DNA of 39,466 nucleotides, taken from positions 1 to 39,466 of the forward strand of contig JAFUMF010000176.1 of NCBI GenBank assembly GCA_017482945.1, in the 5' to 3' direction. Shown piece after piece: positions 9,571 to 39,466 of the stretch. Numbering within the stretch: position 1 is the stretch's first letter; every line of letters starts with the position of its first letter. The notes under the pieces are model-generated. The model made no database searches, was not told where the DNA came from, and saw only the letters and a list, made by a program, of their open reading frames with translations. A program made the position numbers and the translations under genes. The stretch is from Lachnospiraceae bacterium (GTDB lineage Bacteria; Bacillota; Clostridia; Lachnospirales; Lachnospiraceae).

Positions 9571-10695
9571 TTAAATATTCGGGATCATAGATGCCAGCAG
9601 TGCCATTCTCGGGATCAATTCATCGATCAGAATGTACTCCTCCGGAGAATGTGCATGGTCGCCGGATGCGCCAAGACCATCCAGTGTCGGGATTCCCATG
9701 GCAGAAATTGTGTTTCCGTCGCTGCCGCCACCTACGAACTGGCTTGTGAACTGGATGCCCAGTTTCTCACCGCTTGCTTTTGCGATCGCGAACAGTGCCA
9801 TGTTGCCCTCAGTCTCTTCCATCGGCAGCTTGCCATCGATAAATTCTACCTCGCGGGTCGCGCCCGGAACCACGGTCTCAAGATTGTGGATCGCGTCGAT
9901 CACGCGCTGGCGCTCTGTCATGGATTTGAAGCGGCAGTCTACGTTGAACACAGCAGTATCCGGAACTACGTTCACTTTTGTACCGCCTTTGGCAACGCCA
10001 ACGTTCACGGTTGTGCCAGCCTCGTAATTGGTCAGTTTCTGGATGAACAGAATCTCATGTGCCATTTCCTCGAGAGCGTTGATACCATCCTGATGAGCAT
10101 TTCCTGCATGAGCTGCTTTTCCGTGGATCGTAACAGTGAATTTCATGTTGCCTTTTCTTCCGGTCTTTAAGTTGCCGTTTGCCACGCACGGCTCAGTAAC
10201 CAGTGCAGCTTTTGCATCTTTTACGTTCTCTTTGATGATGTCAGTGGAATCTTTGCTTCCTGTCTCCTCGTCACCGTTGAATACACAGACGATTTTCTTG
10301 CCCGGATCGATTCCCAGATCCTGATATGCCTTGATCGCCCAGATCGCGGAAATCAGTCCGCTCTTCATATCATAAACGCCCGGTCCGCGGAGCTTGTTGC
10401 CCTCTGCAACATACGGAAGTGCACCGATCGGATGCACCGTATCATAGTGACCTACGATCACGATCTTTTCTTCGCCTTCGCCGTACTCAAATTTTACTAC
10501 GTCATGGCCGCCCTTTGTCTAGTAAACATACGGTACAATGCCGGTTTTCTCGGTGATCTGGCCTTCCAGTACCTTTCTTACCTGAGCCAGTTCCTCAAGA
10601 TCGGATGTGCTGGCCTCTGCCAGAACCAGAGTTTTTAAATCCTCAAAGATCTCTGCCTCATGCTCTTTGTAATAAGCTAAAATTTTCTGTTCCAT
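9571..10695 (-). pseudogene. M20 peptidase (glutamate carboxypeptidase-like) with in-frame amber codon
   Basis: From ATG 10695 (GGAGG six bases upstream) the frame reads 58 codons beginning MEQKILAYYKEHEAEIFEDL, then TAG at 10519-10521. It resumes in the same frame (KGGHDVVKFEYGEGEEKIVI) to 9571, for a full length of 374 codons. The catalytic part is intact: GHYDTVHPIG, GPGVYDMKSG, FNGDEETGS, and a C-terminal HAHSPEEY. M20 carboxypeptidase-like enzymes hydrolyse C-terminal amino acids from small peptides or folate-like substrates. A single C-to-T change in a CAG codon would explain the TAG. A GTG at 10461 could restart a 296-residue product, but this would lack the N-terminal ~78 residues and has no clear ribosome site. 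It follows the MATE gene by 44 bases, probably in one operon. Confidence 0.82.
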
Positions 10696-30690: not shown

Positions 30691-30712
30691 CATAATAAAA
30701 GCTTACAATCAA

Positions 30713-32083
30713 TTATTCGAGTTCAAGTCCTTTTTTATAAAGCTTATAAGTTTCTAAGCCGGATAAATCCACATCATCCATTGTGACTGGATTCCCCTTC
30801 TTCACATCATTCAGTAATGTTGCACCATTTAAAAGATAGAACGGAGCCGCATTACCAACAGCTTTTCGCTCCAGCAGTTCAGGTGTCAGACCATCGATTT
30901 CATGGTGGTGGCCATGAACGCTGAGAACGGTTCCCTTCGGGATGTCCATATTTGCAACACCTGCAAGAACAGATACCTGTCGGCATTCTGTATGGGTGCC
31001 GATTCCAAGGAAATCACCGAGAATAATAGTAGCCGGTGTCTCCAATCCCATGTAGTGGTATGGATAGTAGATACAGCAATACTTGTCATTCTTGCTCATG
31101 ACATGGCCTTTTCCTTTTAAGATTTCCCACATCTTCTCATTCTCACATTTTACGATGATGAACTCACCACCACAGAAGCTGGCCTCATCTTTCCCTCTCA
31201 GGTTATAGAACACATCCACAACTCCTGTTTTATCAAGGATACCACCATCCTCCTTCGGAATAAAGATATTGGCAAGCTCACTGATTTTTGCGATCGGATA
31301 GCTTAAAAACGGAGTAGTCGGAACCAATCCTGATACGTTTGACACCAGATTCATTTCACAAAGATCAGCCGGAATCACATCTAAGTATTTTGCTAACAGT
31401 TTCCGACGCTCTTCCAGAGTCTCAGTTCCTTTGTAATACCAACAGTCCAACATCTCCGGAATATTTTCTGTCTCGCTGCTGCCATCCAAATATGTAAAAT
31501 CGCTGGTTTCTCTATCCCAGACAAAATCATATTCACTGGATTTACCTGCTGCAACAACCTCCAGTCCTAACAGCATTGCCCAGGAATACAGGTCTAAAAG
31601 GTTTCTCGGCTGATCACCATTCACAAGCGCATAAACTGCATTATTTTCTGCAGCGACCTGATTTAAGATTGGTCCACATACACTGTCTGTTTCCTTAGAA
31701 ACCATATATACGTTAATACCTTTTCTCAAAGCAATCAATGCAGCATCAGAACTAACTGCCGTATTACCCGTACACTCCACAAGAGCTGTGATGCCACATT
31801 CCATTACCAAACGATAATCCGCCACAATCAGGATTGCATCTTCTGCTGCGGCATCGATTTCTTCCTTATTTGCACACACGACAATCTTATTCACATCATA
31901 TCCGATTTCTTTTAAAACATCTAAACACTCATCGGTATGTCTGGAGCAGATTACTCTCAGTTCCATATGCTTTACAGTCGGGATCTGAGCTAATAATGTA
32001 TAACCATATCCACGGGTCGCACCGATAACTCCCACTTTTGATTTTTTTCCGGATTTATCATTGATCAGATTTGTATAATCCAT
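30713..32083 (-). CDS. Rossmann-fold oxidoreductase-like protein with SAF domain
   Basis: A 456-residue protein. The N-terminus has a dinucleotide-binding pattern (KVGVIGATRGYGYTLLAQIP) and a homoserine-dehydrogenase-like arrangement (CGITALVECTGN, GINVYMVSKETDSVCGPIL). From about 350 a SAF-type domain follows (ATIILGDFLGIGTHTECRQV, SVLAGVANMDIPKGTVLSVH). SAF domains bind sugar acids and related ligands. Such proteins recur in polyol and acid-sugar operons, but the exact reaction is not known to me. It is the third gene of the leftward sigma-54 unit, 78 bases after the dehydrogenase, with AAGGAG before ATG 32083. A dehydrogenase or epimerase step on the four-carbon acid is a reasonable guess. 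Confidence 0.75.
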   Translation of the reverse strand: MDYTNLINDKSGKKSKVGVIGATRGYGYTLLAQIPTVKHMELRVICSRHTDECLDVLKEIGYDVNKIVVCANKEEIDAAAEDAILIVADYRLVMECGITALVECTGNTAVSSDAALIALRKGINVYMVSKETDSVCGPILNQVAAENNAVYALVNGDQPRNLLDLYSWAMLLGLEVVAAGKSSEYDFVWDRETSDFTYLDGSSETENIPEMLDCWYYKGTETLEERRKLLAKYLDVIPADLCEMNLVSNVSGLVPTTPFLSYPIAKISELANIFIPKEDGGILDKTGVVDVFYNLRGKDEASFCGGEFIIVKCENEKMWEILKGKGHVMSKNDKYCCIYYPYHYMGLETPATIILGDFLGIGTHTECRQVSVLAGVANMDIPKGTVLSVHGHHHEIDGLTPELLERKAVGNAAPFYLLNGATLLNDVKKGNPVTMDDVDLSGLETYKLYKKGLELE

Positions 32084-32124
32084 GCTTCATATCTCCTTCT
32101 ATCAATCTTATGCTAATTTAGTGG

Positions 32125-32150
32125 AATACTCCGGCTCTTGCCGGAGTATT
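32125..32150 (-). other. Intercistronic hairpin
   Basis: AATACTCCGGC (32125-32135) and GCCGGAGTATT (32140-32150) pair perfectly around a 4-base loop, between the MDR and SAF genes. No T tract follows on the minus strand, so RNA stabilisation or partial termination is likelier than a full stop. Confidence 0.5.
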
Positions 32151-32161
32151 CATCAGAGAGT

Positions 32162-33151
32162 TTATGGACGGAACACAATTTTAATTGCTGCATCATCTTT
32201 ATCAGCAAGATCAAATCCAGCTTTAATATCAGCAAGTTTAAATTCATTCGTAATTAATGGTTTGATTTTTACAGATCCCTGAATAATCGGACGCATGGTA
32301 TCCGGAACCCATACATAGCGCTGCTGCCATGTATGATGCACAAGGCAAGTGTTCACGAACTCAAGTCCGTCATCATGCCAGCGACTGATATTTAATGTTA
32401 CCGGCTTTGTTACCCAGCTATAAAATACAAATTTACCATTGTGGCGGATCATTTCGCTGGCTGCATTGAAGGATTCAGCTGTTCCTGCTGCCTCAACCAC
32501 AACATCTGCACCACGGCCGCCTGTTAACGCCTTTACTTTAGCAACTGCATCTTCCTCATTGGAATTGATAACGATATCAGCTCCAAGAGTTTTTGCAAGA
32601 TTTAACTTACCCTCAAGTACATCAACAACGATGACCTGATATGCACCTTTTAATTTTGCGCACTGAGCAATGATCTGACCTGCATATCCGCCGCCCATGA
32701 TCACAACAGTGTCACCAAGCTGTACACCAGAATTTAAACCAGAATACATTGCACATGCAGTCGGCTCACCGAGCGCTGCAATATCCATATCCAGTCCTTC
32801 CGGAACTGGCTGAAGCTGGAAGCTTTTAGCCTTAAAATAATCTGCAAAGTTATTATTCCAGCCGAATGCGATTACTTTATCACCGACTTTATAATCACTT
32901 ACACGGTTACCAACTGCTACAACTGTACCGCCGCTCTCATGTCCAAGAAGGAACGGAAACTCCGGCGGCTGGCGGAATTCAGCCGTCTGCGGCGGCATGA
33001 ATCCGCGATAAAAACTCTTATCGGATCCGCAGATGCCCATCATGTGGTTTTTGACAATAATGTCATCCTCACCACATACCAGCTCACGTTCAATCAACTC
33101 GATGTCATATGCTTTGTTTAAGCGGGCTGCTCTTGTAATGAATTTTTCCAT
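32162..33151 (-). CDS. Zinc-type MDR alcohol/polyol dehydrogenase
   Basis: A 329-residue medium-chain dehydrogenase. Catalytic zinc ligands are Cys41 (MGICGSDKSF) and His71-Glu72 (LLGHESGG), with the NAD(P) motif VVIMGGGYAGQIIAQCAK. The four-cysteine structural zinc lobe normally after residue ~90 is missing: the sequence runs directly GDKVIAFGWNNNFADYF. This places it with the shorter sorbitol/threonine-dehydrogenase-like MDRs that lack structural zinc. In this operon it would oxidise the hydroxy acid or polyol before phosphorylation. ATG 33151 follows AAAGGA. It is the second gene after the GntP permease, 99 bases downstream. Confidence 0.85.
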   Translation of the reverse strand: MEKFITRAARLNKAYDIELIERELVCGEDDIIVKNHMMGICGSDKSFYRGFMPPQTAEFRQPPEFPFLLGHESGGTVVAVGNRVSDYKVGDKVIAFGWNNNFADYFKAKSFQLQPVPEGLDMDIAALGEPTACAMYSGLNSGVQLGDTVVIMGGGYAGQIIAQCAKLKGAYQVIVVDVLEGKLNLAKTLGADIVINSNEEDAVAKVKALTGGRGADVVVEAAGTAESFNAASEMIRHNGKFVFYSWVTKPVTLNISRWHDDGLEFVNTCLVHHTWQQRYVWVPDTMRPIIQGSVKIKPLITNEFKLADIKAGFDLADKDDAAIKIVFRP

Positions 33152-33250
33152 ATAGTTTTTCCTTTCTGCGTCATTACCGGTCTATTGTTTCACACGGATC
33201 CATACCGACCCATGCATGATTCATATTCACGAACTGTTTTTAGTTTTATA

Positions 33251-34576
33251 TTAGATAATACCTGCAAATACCAGGATACACGTCACAACTGCACCGGTGA
33301 ATCCTGCTACGGTCGAAGCACCGCCTACGCCGCGGATACCCTGATTAACGTCCATGTTGGACATGGAAACAGTTACCCAGAAACCAGAAGAGTTTGCATG
33401 TTTGAACATCAGAGCACCAGTACCACATGCTAAGAATGCTGCTATCGGAGAGATGCCAAGTGTTGCTAACATCGGCTCTACAAGAGCTGCTGTTGTCATA
33501 ACACCAAGGGAGTTGGAACCTGTTACAACGTGGATAAGCGCTGCGATAATAATCGGGATAAGGATCGGCGGGAAGGATGTGCCGGCGATTACCTCTGCAA
33601 TTCTGTCTGCAACGCCTGCATTCTTAACGAATGTTGCAAGTGCACCGCCCATACCAGTTACTACGATCGGCATAGCGGATGCCACAATACCTTCATTTAC
33701 CCAATCATTTAATACCATCTTGGATTTCCACTTATCTCCTGTTAACAGAAGAGAAAGGAGACATCCGGAGAACAGAGCTGCTAATGGGCTTCCGATAAAT
33801 GCGAAGAAGTTCGCAATTCCTGTATCCGGAACAATGATGGATGCGCCTGTGTTCAGAAGAATAAGGAATAACGGGAACAGGATCGGAAGCATGGACTTTG
33901 TCAGGGACGGAAGTTCCATCTTTTCACTTTCCTGTGCGGCTTTGATAAATTCCTCTTTCGGAGAAACCGGAGTCTTTAATGTCATGCAGTATAATGTGGA
34001 AGCAATTACACTTGGGATCGCTACGATGATACCCCAGAGGATTGCCTGTCCAAGCGGTACATTTAACAGCGCTGCTGCAGATACCGGGCCTGGTGTCGGT
34101 GGTACTAAGGATGCAGTTACAAGAGCACCGAGATAAAGTGCTGTACCATAGCTCATCATGGACTTTTTAGTCTGAACAGCCAGAAGAGATACGATCGGGA
34201 TTAAAAGAATAACTACTGTGTCTGCGAAAATCGGAATACCGAGAATTGCAGAGCTGAGAGCAATGGCCCAGATCATATGTTTCTCACCAACAAGGCCGAT
34301 AGCCCATTTGGTAATACGAACAGCTGCGCCGGTCTTCTCAAGGACAGTACCCATGGTACATCCAAGGAAAATTACGATAGCTACACTCTTGATGGTTCCT
34401 GAGAAACCGCTGTTGATGGTTCCTTCAATGTCCTGCCACGGTGTTTTGAGTCCGATTGCGAGAACGATCGCTGCGATCAGGATACCCATTGATGCATTCA
34501 CGTTACACTTAGAGATTAAGAAAATCATCAGTATAATCGCAATCGCAAAAACGATAAGTACATAAGATGTTGACAT
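33251..34576 (-). CDS. GntP family acid-sugar permease
   Basis: A 441-residue permease with about twelve membrane helices and the family motifs GIPIFADTVVILLIPIVSLL, LYLGALVTASLVPPTPGPVS and HVVTGSNSLGVMTTAALVEP. GntP proteins take up gluconate and other hydroxy acids by proton symport. It is the first gene of the leftward unit that continues with the MDR dehydrogenase and the SAF protein. AGGAGG lies upstream of ATG 34576 and a sigma-54 promoter is 73 bases upstream. A four-carbon hydroxy acid such as threonate, erythronate or a relative is the likely substrate, by context. Confidence 0.9.
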   Translation of the reverse strand: MSTSYVLIVFAIAIILMIFLISKCNVNASMGILIAAIVLAIGLKTPWQDIEGTINSGFSGTIKSVAIVIFLGCTMGTVLEKTGAAVRITKWAIGLVGEKHMIWAIALSSAILGIPIFADTVVILLIPIVSLLAVQTKKSMMSYGTALYLGALVTASLVPPTPGPVSAAALLNVPLGQAILWGIIVAIPSVIASTLYCMTLKTPVSPKEEFIKAAQESEKMELPSLTKSMLPILFPLFLILLNTGASIIVPDTGIANFFAFIGSPLAALFSGCLLSLLLTGDKWKSKMVLNDWVNEGIVASAMPIVVTGMGGALATFVKNAGVADRIAEVIAGTSFPPILIPIIIAALIHVVTGSNSLGVMTTAALVEPMLATLGISPIAAFLACGTGALMFKHANSSGFWVTVSMSNMDVNQGIRGVGGASTVAGFTGAVVTCILVFAGII

Positions 34577-34648
34577 AAAATCAAACCTCCTTTATAGTAT
34601 TTCTCTTGCCGTAATCCCCTTACAACAAGTGTGATGCCCTTATATATA

Positions 34649-34663
34649 GCAATTGGTGTGCCA
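34649..34663 (-). promoter_or_regulatory. Sigma-54 (-24/-12) promoter for the gntP unit
   Basis: The minus strand reads TGGCAC (34658-34663), five bases, TTGC (34649-34652) followed by T, an exact match to TGGCAC-N5-TTGC. It lies 73 bases before the permease ATG and some 120 bases downstream of an inverted repeat that could be the activator site. Confidence 0.85.
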
Positions 34664-34779
34664 ACTTTAATTTCCAAGTAAAAATTTTTTCGAATTTCTT
34701 TATAAACTTTATATAAAAGCCATTTTTCTAATATATTTTATTTGTGCAAAAATACTAGGGTAAATGTTGTAAAAACAAA

Positions 34780-34833
34780 TGTGGTGCAACAATTGCAACG
34801 TTTTTAAAACAAACGCAACATTGCTGCACCACA
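34780..34833. promoter_or_regulatory. Long inverted repeat, candidate activator site (and/or terminator) A
   Basis: TGTGGTGCAACAAT (34780-34793) and ATTGCTGCACCACA (34820-34833) are inverted with one mismatch. Between them lie further TTGCAAC/CGCAAC half sites. The 9-mer GTGCAACAA here recurs at 36836-36844. At 117-184 bases from the -24 element it sits where sigma-54 enhancers usually sit. On the minus strand it also follows the regulator stop by 22 bases and runs into TTTGTTTTT, so it could double as that gene's terminator. Confidence 0.6.
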
Positions 34834-34854
34834 TATTTCGTTTATCTCTTGCTA

Positions 34855-36765
34855 TTACAATTGATATTTCTGCATTTTTCTCCAAAGAGTAGACCGATCC
34901 ATTCCAAGAAGCTTCGCTGCCTGAGTCCGGTTTCCATTACACTGCTCCAAAGCCTTTTTCAATCGTTCCGGTTCGCTTACAACCGGAGATTCCTGATAAT
35001 CCAGACTCGAAGAAGGCATCATAATCGAATCCATGCTAAGATCCTGTGGGTAAAGTGCCTCTTTTAAATCTTCTTTTGTTATCATACTTCCATCTTTCAA
35101 AGCACAGGCACGCTCCACAATATTTTTCAATTCCCGGATATTTCCCATAAATGGATACTGGTGAAGAAGCGGCAATGCATTGGGATTAAGAACCGGTACC
35201 GGCATTCCCATTTCCATGCTCTGATGCTTTAATAAGTTCAAAAACAGAACTTCCACGTCATTCTCTCTGTTCCTAAGCGGCGGAATAAACAGTCTCAGAA
35301 CATCCAGCCGATACATCAGATCCTTTCTGAACATTCCCTGCTCTGACAGTTTCGAAATGCTTTTATTGGTCGCAGAAATAATCCGGACATTGATATCAAT
35401 GACTTTATTATCACCAATTCGACGTACCTGTTTTTCCTGCAGAACCCGGAGCAGTTTGCTCTGAATCGACATGGTCACCTCACCGATTTCATCTAAAAAT
35501 AAGGTTCCTCCATGAGCCTGCTCAAAAAGACCCATCTTTCCACCTTTACTGGTTCCTGTAAATGCGCCTTCCACATATCCAAACAATTCACTTTCCAGAA
35601 GATTTTCCGGAAGTGCAGCACAGTTAATTGCCACAAACGGTCCATTTTTCCGACTGCTGGCATTATGGATGCTCTGTGCAAACAATTCTTTTCCGGTACC
35701 TGTCTCACCAACGATGATGACGTTGGAATCGGAAGCCGCATATCTTCTGGCAGTTTCTATGGTCTGCTCCATAGTCCGGCTCTGATGAATGATATCTTCA
35801 AATGTATATTTTGCTTTTAAGCCTCGTTCGCTGAGTTTTCGACGAATCTGACTCTCTAAGTCCTGAATCATGGTAATATCAGAAAGATTGATTACCACAC
35901 CGGATATTTCCTTATTGGCAATAACAGGGATTCCGCTCACTGACACAGTAGTTTTTGTACCAGGAATTGTAAGGATCCGTCCAATTTCTTCCTGACCTGA
36001 AGCCATAACATTTTTAAACGTTTTATATAAATACGGAAGTGTCTGTTTTAATGGGCGTTCCAACAGACTGATATCCCCATTCATCTGACGAATAACTCTG
36101 TTTCGAACCAGAATGGTACCTTCTGCATTCACATAAAGAACACCATCTTTTGAGGAATAAATAATGGTCTTATACATCTGAGCAATCACACGCTCATATC
36201 GAATCTGTTTCACTGTATGGACCGCCTCATCAATGGCCTGATAAATCGTATCTTCACCAGTTCGAATCACAACGGAGTTGATTCCATGCTGGCGTGCCAG
36301 GATATTCGCAGAATAACCGCCGATAATCGCATCACATCCCGCATCAATTGCTCTGTCGACCGACTCATGAAGCGCTTCATGAGTAGCTGGTGCATAAACC
36401 TTTGCCTCTACACCAAATAATTTACTTATATTCTCTGCCTCAAATAATTGTCCACTAAATCCACAAATAGCAATCTTCTTTGGATGATATGCTTCACAAC
36501 ACTCAGAAATTGCCCGGATGATATCATAACCGGAAATAATCACACCAATGGTCGGTATCTGTTTATACTTTTCCGACGTTTTTCTTGCCGTATATCCTCT
36601 TGCAATAATTGCATCATATTCATCTGCAGGAACGTCCGGTGTCTCCTCCACAGTCATTACCTGGACATCCACATTCAAGTTCTTTTTTTCCGGATGATGA
36701 GAAAGAACGTACTCAACTTTTTCCTTCAATTCAGGATATGGAACGATAAATAACAAACGGATCAT
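34855..36765 (-). CDS. PrpR-type sigma-54 activator
   Basis: A 636-residue enhancer-binding protein. Residues ~1-185 form a PrpR_N sensor domain (IIARGYTARKTSEKYKQIPT, ISECCEAYHPKKIAICGFSG). A PAS domain lies at about 200-320, and the AAA+ domain at about 330-560. The latter has Walker A GETGTGKELFAQ, Walker B GGTLFLDEIGE, an arginine-finger region (MFRKDLMYRL) and the sigma-54 contact loop GAFTGT instead of GAFTGA. A Fis-type HTH ends the protein (GNRTQAAKLLGMDRSTLWRK). It would sense an acid-sugar metabolite and open both flanking -24/-12 promoters. ATG 36765 was chosen for the GGGGGGA ribosome site and because the PrpR_N similarity starts there. Confidence 0.92.
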   Translation of the reverse strand: MIRLLFIVPYPELKEKVEYVLSHHPEKKNLNVDVQVMTVEETPDVPADEYDAIIARGYTARKTSEKYKQIPTIGVIISGYDIIRAISECCEAYHPKKIAICGFSGQLFEAENISKLFGVEAKVYAPATHEALHESVDRAIDAGCDAIIGGYSANILARQHGINSVVIRTGEDTIYQAIDEAVHTVKQIRYERVIAQMYKTIIYSSKDGVLYVNAEGTILVRNRVIRQMNGDISLLERPLKQTLPYLYKTFKNVMASGQEEIGRILTIPGTKTTVSVSGIPVIANKEISGVVINLSDITMIQDLESQIRRKLSERGLKAKYTFEDIIHQSRTMEQTIETARRYAASDSNVIIVGETGTGKELFAQSIHNASSRKNGPFVAINCAALPENLLESELFGYVEGAFTGTSKGGKMGLFEQAHGGTLFLDEIGEVTMSIQSKLLRVLQEKQVRRIGDNKVIDINVRIISATNKSISKLSEQGMFRKDLMYRLDVLRLFIPPLRNRENDVEVLFLNLLKHQSMEMGMPVPVLNPNALPLLHQYPFMGNIRELKNIVERACALKDGSMITKEDLKEALYPQDLSMDSIMMPSSSLDYQESPVVSEPERLKKALEQCNGNRTQAAKLLGMDRSTLWRKMQKYQL

Positions 36766-36796
36766 ATACTTTCCCCCCACCGTAATCACATATAAT

Positions 36797-36844
36797 TTGT
36801 TGCAACACCTGTTGCATTGTTTCAAGTATACAACAGTGCAACAA
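36797..36844. promoter_or_regulatory. Inverted TTGTTGCA/TGCAACAA sites, candidate activator site B
   Basis: TTGTTGCA (36797-36804) and TGCAACAA (36837-36844) are exact inverted copies, with a further TGTTGCA-like half site between them at 36810-36815. The block is 56-103 bases upstream of the sigma-54 promoter of the kinase-aldolase gene and shares GTGCAACAA with site A. Confidence 0.6.
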
Positions 36845-36854
36845 GTGTCGTCAA
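36825..36854 (-). promoter_or_regulatory. Sigma-70 promoter of the sigma-54 activator
   Basis: The minus strand has TTGACG (36849-36854), 18 bases, TATACT (36825-36830), 60 bases before the ATG at 36765. The candidate site GTGCAACAA (36836-36844) lies in its spacer, which would allow the activator to repress itself. Confidence 0.55.
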
Positions 36855-36899
36855 CTGCGAAACCTATCAATACAAAGGGATTCTTTCCTTTCTTCATGA

Positions 36900-36914
36900 T
36901 GGCACAAAATTTGC
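36900..36914 (+). promoter_or_regulatory. Sigma-54 (-24/-12) promoter for the kinase-aldolase gene
   Basis: TGGCAC (36900-36905), five bases, TTGC (36911-36914) followed by T, is an exact -24/-12 element. The ATG at 36960 is 45 bases downstream, with AAGGAGG before it. Confidence 0.85.
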
Positions 36915-36959
36915 TATAATTAAGAGTAATACTTTCTATCAATCTTAAGGAGGAACATT

Positions 36960-38809
36960 ATGGCTGTATTAGGATGTATTGCTGATGATTTTACCGGTGC
37001 CAGTGATGCGGCTTCATTTCTTGTAAAAGGCGGAATGAGCGTACGGCTCTATAACGGAATTCCAGAACATAAAGCACAAGCTGACGAAGCACAGGCCATT
37101 GTCATTGCATTAAAGTCAAGAACTCAGGAAACAGAGTATGCAGTAGAAGACAGTTTAAAAGCTGCTGCATTTTTATTGAATCAGGGCGTCAAACAATTGT
37201 ATTTTAAATATTGCTCTACCTTTGATTCCACACCGTCAGGAAATATTGGACCTGTGGCGGATGCTCTCATGGAATTGATAAATGCGCCATGTACGATTTT
37301 ATGTCCGGCTCTTCCGGTAAATGGAAGGACTGTTGAAAACGGAAATCTTCTGGTAAATGGTATTCCACTCCATGAAAGCCATATGAAAAATCATCCGCTG
37401 ACACCAATGTGGGACAGCAAAATTGCAAAGCTGATGGAACCACAGAGCAAATATGAATGCTTGAATGTCAATGCTGCAGAACTAAAAGAGTTTTGTCTGG
37501 ATTCTGTATACAAAGAGTATCAAAAATCCGGTCGACCAATTTATATCATACCAGACTATATCAATTCCAATGACGGTGAAACAATTGCCGAGATATTTGG
37601 CCAGCTTCCACTTTTGACCGGAGGAAGCGGAATTTTAGAGCCTCTGGCAAAAATATGGACCAAAAAACTTTCCTCAGAAGGAAATATTCCGACCAGTGCA
37701 ACTACAGGAAAAGCCCTTATTTTAGCAGGCAGCTGTTCGAACGCGACTCTCGGACAGATTGCATGGTACAAAAATCAGAATACACCATGCTATAAATTGG
37801 ATCCAAAGGCCATGATGGAGGGACGGCAGACCATCGAAGATGCCTGGACATTTATCAAAGATCACACAACAGAGACTGAATCTGTCCTTGTGTATAGTTC
37901 GGATACTCCGGAAAAAGTTAAGGAATATCAGAAAATGGGGATTGAAGCAGTTGCGTCCATGTTGGAAGGTGCCACTGCCGAACTGGCGGTTCGCGCTGTG
38001 GATGCCGGATTCACAAGAATTATATCTGCCGGCGGAGAAACTTCCGGTGCTGTAACAAAAGGACTGGGATTTTCTTCTTACTGGATGGGAGAAAGTGTCG
38101 CTCCGGGTGTTCCGATCATGGTACCGACCGAACGCTCTGATATTCGTTTAATTTTGAAAAGTGGAAATTTCGGCCAGGAAGATTTCTTTGGACGTGCGCT
38201 TGCAATGACGACTAATTATGATCCGGAATTAAAAAGCAAACTAGATACAGCTGTCTGGATCGCACACAGCTTGTTCGAACGCGGAAAAACTTCCGGCTCT
38301 TCTGCCAACTTAAGTTTCCGCCATAAAGATCATATTTATATTAGTATCAGTGGTTCCTCTTTCGGAACCATGAAAGAAGATGATTTTGCAGTTATTTCTC
38401 TGGACGGTTCCATTCTTTCCGAGAAAAAGCCCAGTAAAGAGTGGCCGCTTCACCTTACTCTTTATGGGAAATCGCCGGATATTGGTGCTGTTATTCATAC
38501 CCACAGCACTTACTCCGTCCTTTGGAGTTTGTACCTTCCTCAACGGAACACGACTGTATCCCGGACCATACTCCCTACCTGAAGATGAAACTCGGAACCG
38601 TAGGCTTAATTCCCTACGAAAAGCCCGGTTCCGAGGCCCTCTTCTCTGCATTCCGTAATGAAATCAACAAGAGCGATGGTTATCTCCTAAAACATCATGG
38701 TCCTGTGGTACCTGGAAAAACAATGATGGACGCTTTCTACTGCTTGGAAGAACTGGAAGAAAGTGCACGTATTGCATGGGAATTATATCGGGCAGGAATC
38801 AGCCAATAA
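36960..38809 (+). pseudogene. DUF1537 four-carbon acid sugar kinase fused to class II aldolase, frameshifted
   Basis: The first ~410 residues are a DUF1537 kinase (GCIADDFTGASDAASFLVKG, YFKYCSTFDSTPSGNIGPVA, ISAGGETSGAVTKGLGFSSY). This family phosphorylates threonate, erythronate or 3-oxo-tetronate. From about 424 a class II aldolase/decarboxylase domain follows (SSANLSFRHKDHIYISISGS, IHTHSTYSVLW). After 38545 the frame goes wrong and stops at 38582. The frame one base earlier continues EHDCIPDHTPYLKMKLGTVG to LLKHHGPVVPGKTMMDAFYC and stops at 38809. Restoring one G in CAACGG-AACAC (near 38545) rejoins both parts at the family's expected spacing. The kinase half may still be made; the aldolase half, with its last metal His, is lost unless the shift is a sequencing error. 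Confidence 0.82.
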
Positions 38810-38825
38810 CCTCCTTATACAAAAC

Positions 38826-38855
38826 GAAAGAGCAGCTCCCCCTGGCTGCTCTTTC
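38826..38855. terminator. Terminator hairpin
   Basis: GAAAGAGCAGC (38826-38836) pairs perfectly with GCTGCTCTTTC (38845-38855), followed by ATCTTTTC. It ends the kinase-aldolase unit. Confidence 0.8.
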
Positions 38856-38883
38856 ATCTTTTCTACACCTATAATATTTACAA

Positions 38884-39466
38884 TCAAGTATTCTTCATCA
38901 CAATCAACTCAATGGAATCGCCCACATGCTCACATGCATCTGCACAGTCTTCCATATGATCATAAATCTCTCTCCAGGAAATAATATCCAGAACATCACT
39001 GCAGTGATCACGCACCTTCAGTGTAGCTTCCAGATAAAGATCATCGCAAGTCTCCTCCATGTGGCTGAGTTCAATGATCATCTCATGAAGCTTCTGCGGT
39101 TTCTTGAAGTTTGCAAGCTCTGTCAGCATATTTTTCATAAGATCACAGCACTTTACAATTCGTTTTGCAAATTCCAGAGCCTCCGGTGTCACTGTTTTGA
39201 TCTGGTCCACATAAAATCTCTGAAGAACTTCTTCGATGCAGTCTGCCACTTCGTCAATATTCTGGCTGATCACTGCCAGATCTTCACGATCAAGCGGTGT
39301 CACGAACGCCTTTGCTAACGCCGCAGTCATTTCATGCTTCTTAGTATCTGCATCATGCTCCAGACGATGCATCTTCTCTAACATCTGCTTGATATTGTTA
39401 TAATCATAATGATTCAGGCACTCTTCCAGATAATTTGCCGCCTGACAGCAGCAAGTCGCCGCTCCA
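38884..39466 (-). CDS. DUF47 / PhoU-like protein (partial)
   Basis: At least 193 residues are visible; the 5' end is beyond the window. The frame is open to the edge and starts there as ATCCCQAANYLEECLNHYDY. Helical segments include MHRLEHDADTKKHEMTAALA, KAFVTPLDREDLAVISQNID, EVADCIEEVLQRFY and WREIYDHMEDCADACEHVGD. The E/D-x-x-x-D repeats at helix starts are the metal-cluster motif of PhoU/DUF47 proteins. These regulators usually sit beside a Pit-type phosphate transporter, and that gene could follow or precede outside the window. Confidence 0.9.
   Translation of the reverse strand, partial: GAATCCCQAANYLEECLNHYDYNNIKQMLEKMHRLEHDADTKKHEMTAALAKAFVTPLDREDLAVISQNIDEVADCIEEVLQRFYVDQIKTVTPEALEFAKRIVKCCDLMKNMLTELANFKKPQKLHEMIIELSHMEETCDDLYLEATLKVRDHCSDVLDIISWREIYDHMEDCADACEHVGDSIELIVMKNT

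Follow-up and report, generated by a model that had tools for sequence, protein, structure and literature searches.

A one-base deficit splits the aldolase half of a fused OtnK-OtnC gene in a draft Lachnospiraceae genome

The DNA analysed here, called the window, comprises all 39,466 bases of contig C147, one of the 250 contigs in a 2.7-Mb draft genome. It carries a gene in which a 3-oxo-tetronate kinase (OtnK) is fused to a class II aldolase-type decarboxylase (OtnC), and the OtnC part is divided between two reading frames by a net deficit of one base, see Table 1. The fused gene stands in a conserved cluster, both domains can be assigned to known families, and the deficit probably lies beside the TTT at 38528-38530. 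On balance we believe that the draft consensus is wrong at this place and that the gene is intact in the cell; an error is slightly favoured over a real mutation. In either case, error or recent mutation, the broken gene is an ordinary one.

Table 1. Features of the fused gene and of the neighbouring cluster in the window.
Feature	Position	Strand	Basis
Fused gene, OtnK + OtnC	36960-38809	+	
OtnK domain, intact	36960-38204	+	NF043035; Pfam SBD_N and NBD_C
OtnC (Aldolase_II) first half, kinase frame	38205-38527	+	PF00596 positions 6-101 of 183; NF043034 positions 8-103 of 205
Probable site of the net one-base deficit, next to TTT 38528-38530	38526-38531	+	W-S/T-F-V-P of relatives, DNA gap placement, profile scan
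OtnC second half, other frame	38528-38809	+	PF00596 positions 103-182 of 183; NF043034 positions 104-188 of 205
Premature TGA stop, kinase frame; 540-aa product	38580-38582	+	
Sigma-54 type -24/-12 promoter-like element, TGGCAC-N5-TTGC, 5' of fused gene	36900-36914	+	Pattern scan
Sigma-54 dependent activator with PrpR_N domain, divergent; listed start TTG (putative)	34855-36942	-	Pfam
GntP-family permease	33251-34576	-	Pfam
Zinc-dependent alcohol dehydrogenase family protein	32162-33151	-	Pfam
DRL_cat oxidoreductase	30713-32083	-	Pfam PF21135

The kinase scores 451 bits against the OtnK model (cut-off 350) over model positions 1-417 of 418, and the solved chains nearest to it are 1yzy, 5dmh and 3dqq. 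It resembles OtnK of the DUF1537 family in domain order and in scoring above the curated cut-off; however, it differs in being fused to OtnC at its C-terminus. The kinase frame continues into the aldolase and includes the motif HTHSTYS (38496-38516), after which, as the preliminary description had noted, the frame changes. The kinase frame runs into the premature stop, while the aldolase resumes in the other frame and reaches its expected stop at 38807-38809. The two halves match consecutive parts of the OtnC model NF043034, which is cut at positions 103/104, with 79.8 bits for the first half and 73.3 bits for the second. Each half stays under the 250-bit cut-off, and with one base missing there is no full-length OtnC match in a single open frame; the cut-off was, however, reached by 0 of the 397 genomes of the family search. 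By analogy with L-fuculose-phosphate aldolase, the metal histidines of class II aldolases are an H-x-H and a later His. The putative ligand motif HTH lies in the kinase frame (38496-38504), while the later conserved His, that of L-K-H-H-G-P, is in the other frame and aligns with N-H-G-P of the aldolase 6voq, which together with the aldolase 6vop is the best solved match to the OtnC tail. The only other match of the query in the genome is 29% identical and covers aldolase residues only.

Searches by tblastn in 103 loci located three parts of the gene separately, namely the kinase, the first half of the aldolase and the tail; loci whose kinase match was at least 36% identical were kept. Among the 72 loci L032-L103, kinase and aldolase are adjacent in 55 and apart in 4, and the first aldolase half is unmatched in 13. 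They are also adjacent in L003, L004 and L007, giving 58 adjacent pairs in total, and apart in L006. The tail was not found in two of the 58 (L065 and L097), leaving 56 testable relatives. The number of independent cases is smaller than 56, as some loci (L003/L038, L039/L040) come from the same or nearly the same genome. L093, which is among the 56, has a damaged OtnC. Both aldolase halves are in one frame in all 56. A fused OtnK-OtnC gene is present in 4 of the 58 adjacent pairs (L033, L039, L040 and L049). Six stretches of viral contigs matched a pattern, and none of the six encodes a relative.

The size of the lesion is clear from the distance between two anchor residues, which is 11 nt in the window, 12 nt in 48 of the 56 relatives and another multiple of three in the remaining 8. 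The preliminary description had proposed that one base be added at CAACGG-AACAC near 38545; the one-base deficit holds, but the site is poorly supported. Just past the HTHS motif, most of the close relatives compared read W-S/T-F-V-P. In the window the upstream frame gives W and S, and the downstream frame reads F-V-P-S-S-T-E-H-D-C from 38528; therefore the frames meet at 38526-38531, beside the TTT. Pairwise DNA alignments were made with 29 relatives, counting duplicates, in which the first half of the aldolase is 60% identical or more. In 24 of the 29, the co-optimal solutions include a gap immediately 5' of T38528, several of these alignments permitting other places too; in the remaining 5 (L043, L045, L051, L059 and L111) the gap lies elsewhere. 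Read-through profile scans point in the same direction, with a modest preference for 38525-38531 over the CGG at 38544-38546: in the close set the peak is 371.9 bits against 367.2 at the CGG (4.7 lower), and in the wide set 339.3 against 335.5 (3.8 lower). A break at 38545 is disfavoured; the profile scores by themselves would still allow it, but the DNA gap placement and the W-S/T-F-V-P residues weigh more. The break is thus probably about 16 nt upstream of the CGG.

A programmed -1 frameshift, another option raised earlier, would yield both a kinase-only product of 540 aa and the full fusion, and we consider it most improbable. The downstream frame is indeed the -1 frame, and one base read twice at the break gives the conserved residues, as is true of any one-base loss. 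However, the only X XXY YYZ heptamer in 38441-38582 is off-frame, the same interval has no homopolymer of four or more bases, and the gene is split in none of the 56 testable relatives, the four fused ones included. The G run that had been placed at the break is likewise absent from this interval. That the cell uses the split, with a -1 shift near the TTT that sets the ratio of kinase-only protein to complete fusion and depends on some signal other than a typical slippery heptamer, is hardly to be expected.

In the pathway described in passages of PMC12540250, 3-oxo-tetronate is phosphorylated by OtnK and the product is decarboxylated by OtnC to dihydroxyacetone phosphate. For the window gene, we infer the enzyme activities and the use of the promoter. 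The -24/-12 pattern has three matches in the window when both strands are scanned, and one of them lies upstream of the fused gene. Its sequence, TGGCAC-N5-TTGC, resembles the sigma-54 -24/-12 consensus. With this element and a divergent protein with Sigma54_activat and PrpR_N domains, the gene appears to be sigma-54-controlled, as had been suggested.

Going by record titles, Enterocloster hominis, Lachnospiraceae and others carry the whole cluster or some of its genes. With 40% identity as the lower limit, the activator is present in at least 22, the DRL_cat oxidoreductase in at least 19, the GntP permease in at least 13 and the dehydrogenase in at least 12 of the 72 loci. The loci of Enterocloster hominis (L033) and Clostridiales bacterium 1_7_47_FAA (L034) contain the same cluster genes in the same orientation, with an activator 70-72%, a permease 86-88% and a dehydrogenase 92-94% identical to those of the window. 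However, their OtnC is intact, and it is fused to OtnK in L033 but separate in L034. The OtnK of the window is only 71-74% identical to theirs, well below the values for the dehydrogenase and the permease. The two other genomes of the genus, which are drafts as well, have no DNA that matches 30700-39466. The high identity of the dehydrogenase and the permease compared with OtnK, together with this missing match within the genus, suggests that the cluster was acquired by horizontal transfer.

The tail itself carries no sign of decay. Against nine intact relatives it averages an identity of 0.854, and its divergence relative to that of the N-half (ratio 0.56) falls inside the span of these relatives (0.46-0.73). 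The tail is 79-87% identical to that of the 15 loci whose kinase identity is 65-75%; to L093 and L098, both of which have kinase fragments only, it is 55% and 79% identical, respectively. As the tail is conserved as in the nine intact relatives, an old pseudogene is ruled out, and the lesion must be either very recent or an artefact.

To gauge the quality of the assembly, broken genes were sought in 61 stretches, namely 60 of the 250 contigs (four cut at 20 kb) and the window, 619,096 bases in all. The references were open frames from relatives, and coverage was counted at 40% identity or more. A first frame-change scan was noisy and was replaced by a best-match scan at this threshold, and a first in-frame stop scan was swamped by antisense frames and was replaced by later scans. 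Besides the break, the first frame-change scans had flagged two places in L147, which proved to be antisense frames of opposite-strand genes, and one near 38184-38201. The hit at 38201 was judged to arise where a reference with a separate aldolase gene has its frame extended 5' of the gene start, so that it enters the kinase region. In five isolate or named loci (L032, L033, L034, L059 and L068), the same kind of scan covered 37,501 bases and flagged 7 places, most of them where kinase and aldolase join or close to the start of the locus match; all were judged false. A weak in-frame stop at 344 of L151, with 33% identity, was dropped by the identity cut.

Three broken genes remain in 114 best matches and 105,544 covered bases: OtnC, an M20-family peptidase and uppS. 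Two of the three lie in the window, which is a non-random pick chosen for its lesion. In the peptidase (9571-10695, minus strand) there is a single in-frame TAG at 10519-10521, and the orthologue in the same-genus genome G002 (L238) is open for 379 aa with GAG at the stop site. In uppS (contig C183; L150 at 13039) there is an in-frame TAA, where the control genome G037 has GAG in an F-S-T-E-N motif. Both firm stops thus correspond to GAG in one reference each. The simplest reading of both is a G-to-T change. Two examples are few, but oxidised-DNA errors or a mutator might lie behind such changes. The control G037, one contig, has 4 stop sites in 115 best matches and 102,646 bases; at 3 of the 4 a longer open frame covers the site, so that these are probably antisense artefacts, which leaves 1 candidate. 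In G002, there are 0 stop sites in 33 best matches and 27,455 bases.

UppS is an essential enzyme. The broken copy is the single PF01255 match in the genome, and the family is present in 14 of 14 control genomes. The TAA is therefore probably a false stop; it follows that part of the lesions seen in this assembly are probably spurious and that its sequence is unreliable at the level of single bases. This argues for an error in OtnC as well, and the position of the break, 936 bases from the end of the contig, was counted on the same side. If the draft consensus is wrong at about 38526-38531, the cell would carry an ordinary intact OtnK-OtnC gene of four-carbon acid-sugar catabolism. A single polypeptide would then phosphorylate 3-oxo-tetronate and decarboxylate the product to dihydroxyacetone phosphate, and the fused gene would be expressed from the sigma-54 promoter under the divergent PrpR_N activator. 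Some observations stand against an error. The uppS and M20 lesions are substitutions to stop and not indels, so this assembly is not shown to make indel errors; the 60 sampled contigs contain one firm lesion, that in uppS, so errors are uncommon; and the TTT run is no classic homopolymer trap.

It is quite possible, on the other hand, that the deletion of a single base is real and recent. The cell would then make a 540-aa protein whose kinase works but whose aldolase is cut short and inactive, without its C-terminal half and the conserved histidine, and the pathway would halt at the phosphorylated intermediate. There are signs that real loss may also happen in the OtnK-OtnC family. The pair is damaged as well in the record of [Clostridium] clostridioforme AGR2157 (L093, positions 1-1400), apparently an isolate. 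Its first 298 kinase residues are unmatched in the 453 bases between the remaining kinase part and the contig end, and the OtnC tail has lost about 35 residues from its middle, in frame. L097 and L098 likewise have partial kinase matches only. The cluster is also accessory, as neither of the same-genus drafts has a DNA match to it, and no other frame change in the sampled assembly held up on inspection. However, with a tail free of decay such a mutation must have occurred very recently, the phosphorylated intermediate might build up if OtnK worked with no OtnC behind it, and the uppS stop speaks against taking every lesion of this assembly as real.

The case calls for caution. An automatic annotation pipeline would report OtnC as truncated and, from that, lost growth on four-carbon acid sugars. 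Such a prediction would rest on one base of a draft contig, in a genome that also "loses" uppS.

The fusion of OtnK to OtnC is uncommon yet not unique. An artefact of a second indel is disfavoured as its origin, as the junction in L033 is the same, at the same length. In the literature searched we found no description of a bacterial OtnK-OtnC (Aldolase_II) fusion, which is no proof of absence. A related three-domain protein is found in plants: passages of PMC12540250 describe Arabidopsis LTD (AT1G18270), with LtnD, OtnK and OtnC in one polypeptide. It shares with the window gene an OtnK-like domain joined to an OtnC-like domain; however, it has LtnD domains in addition, and the OtnC part belongs to the F_bP_aldolase type (PMC12540250). 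A mention in PMC4921024 concerns DUF1537 fused to a vitamin B6 (PLP) pathway gene. The OtnK-OtnC fusion, present in a few lineages, offers a modest natural example of enzymes for successive pathway steps being joined. Open frames of 615 aa in L104 and 638 aa in L106 suggest that these are also fusions; L104 reads like L033 around the break and may come from the same genome.
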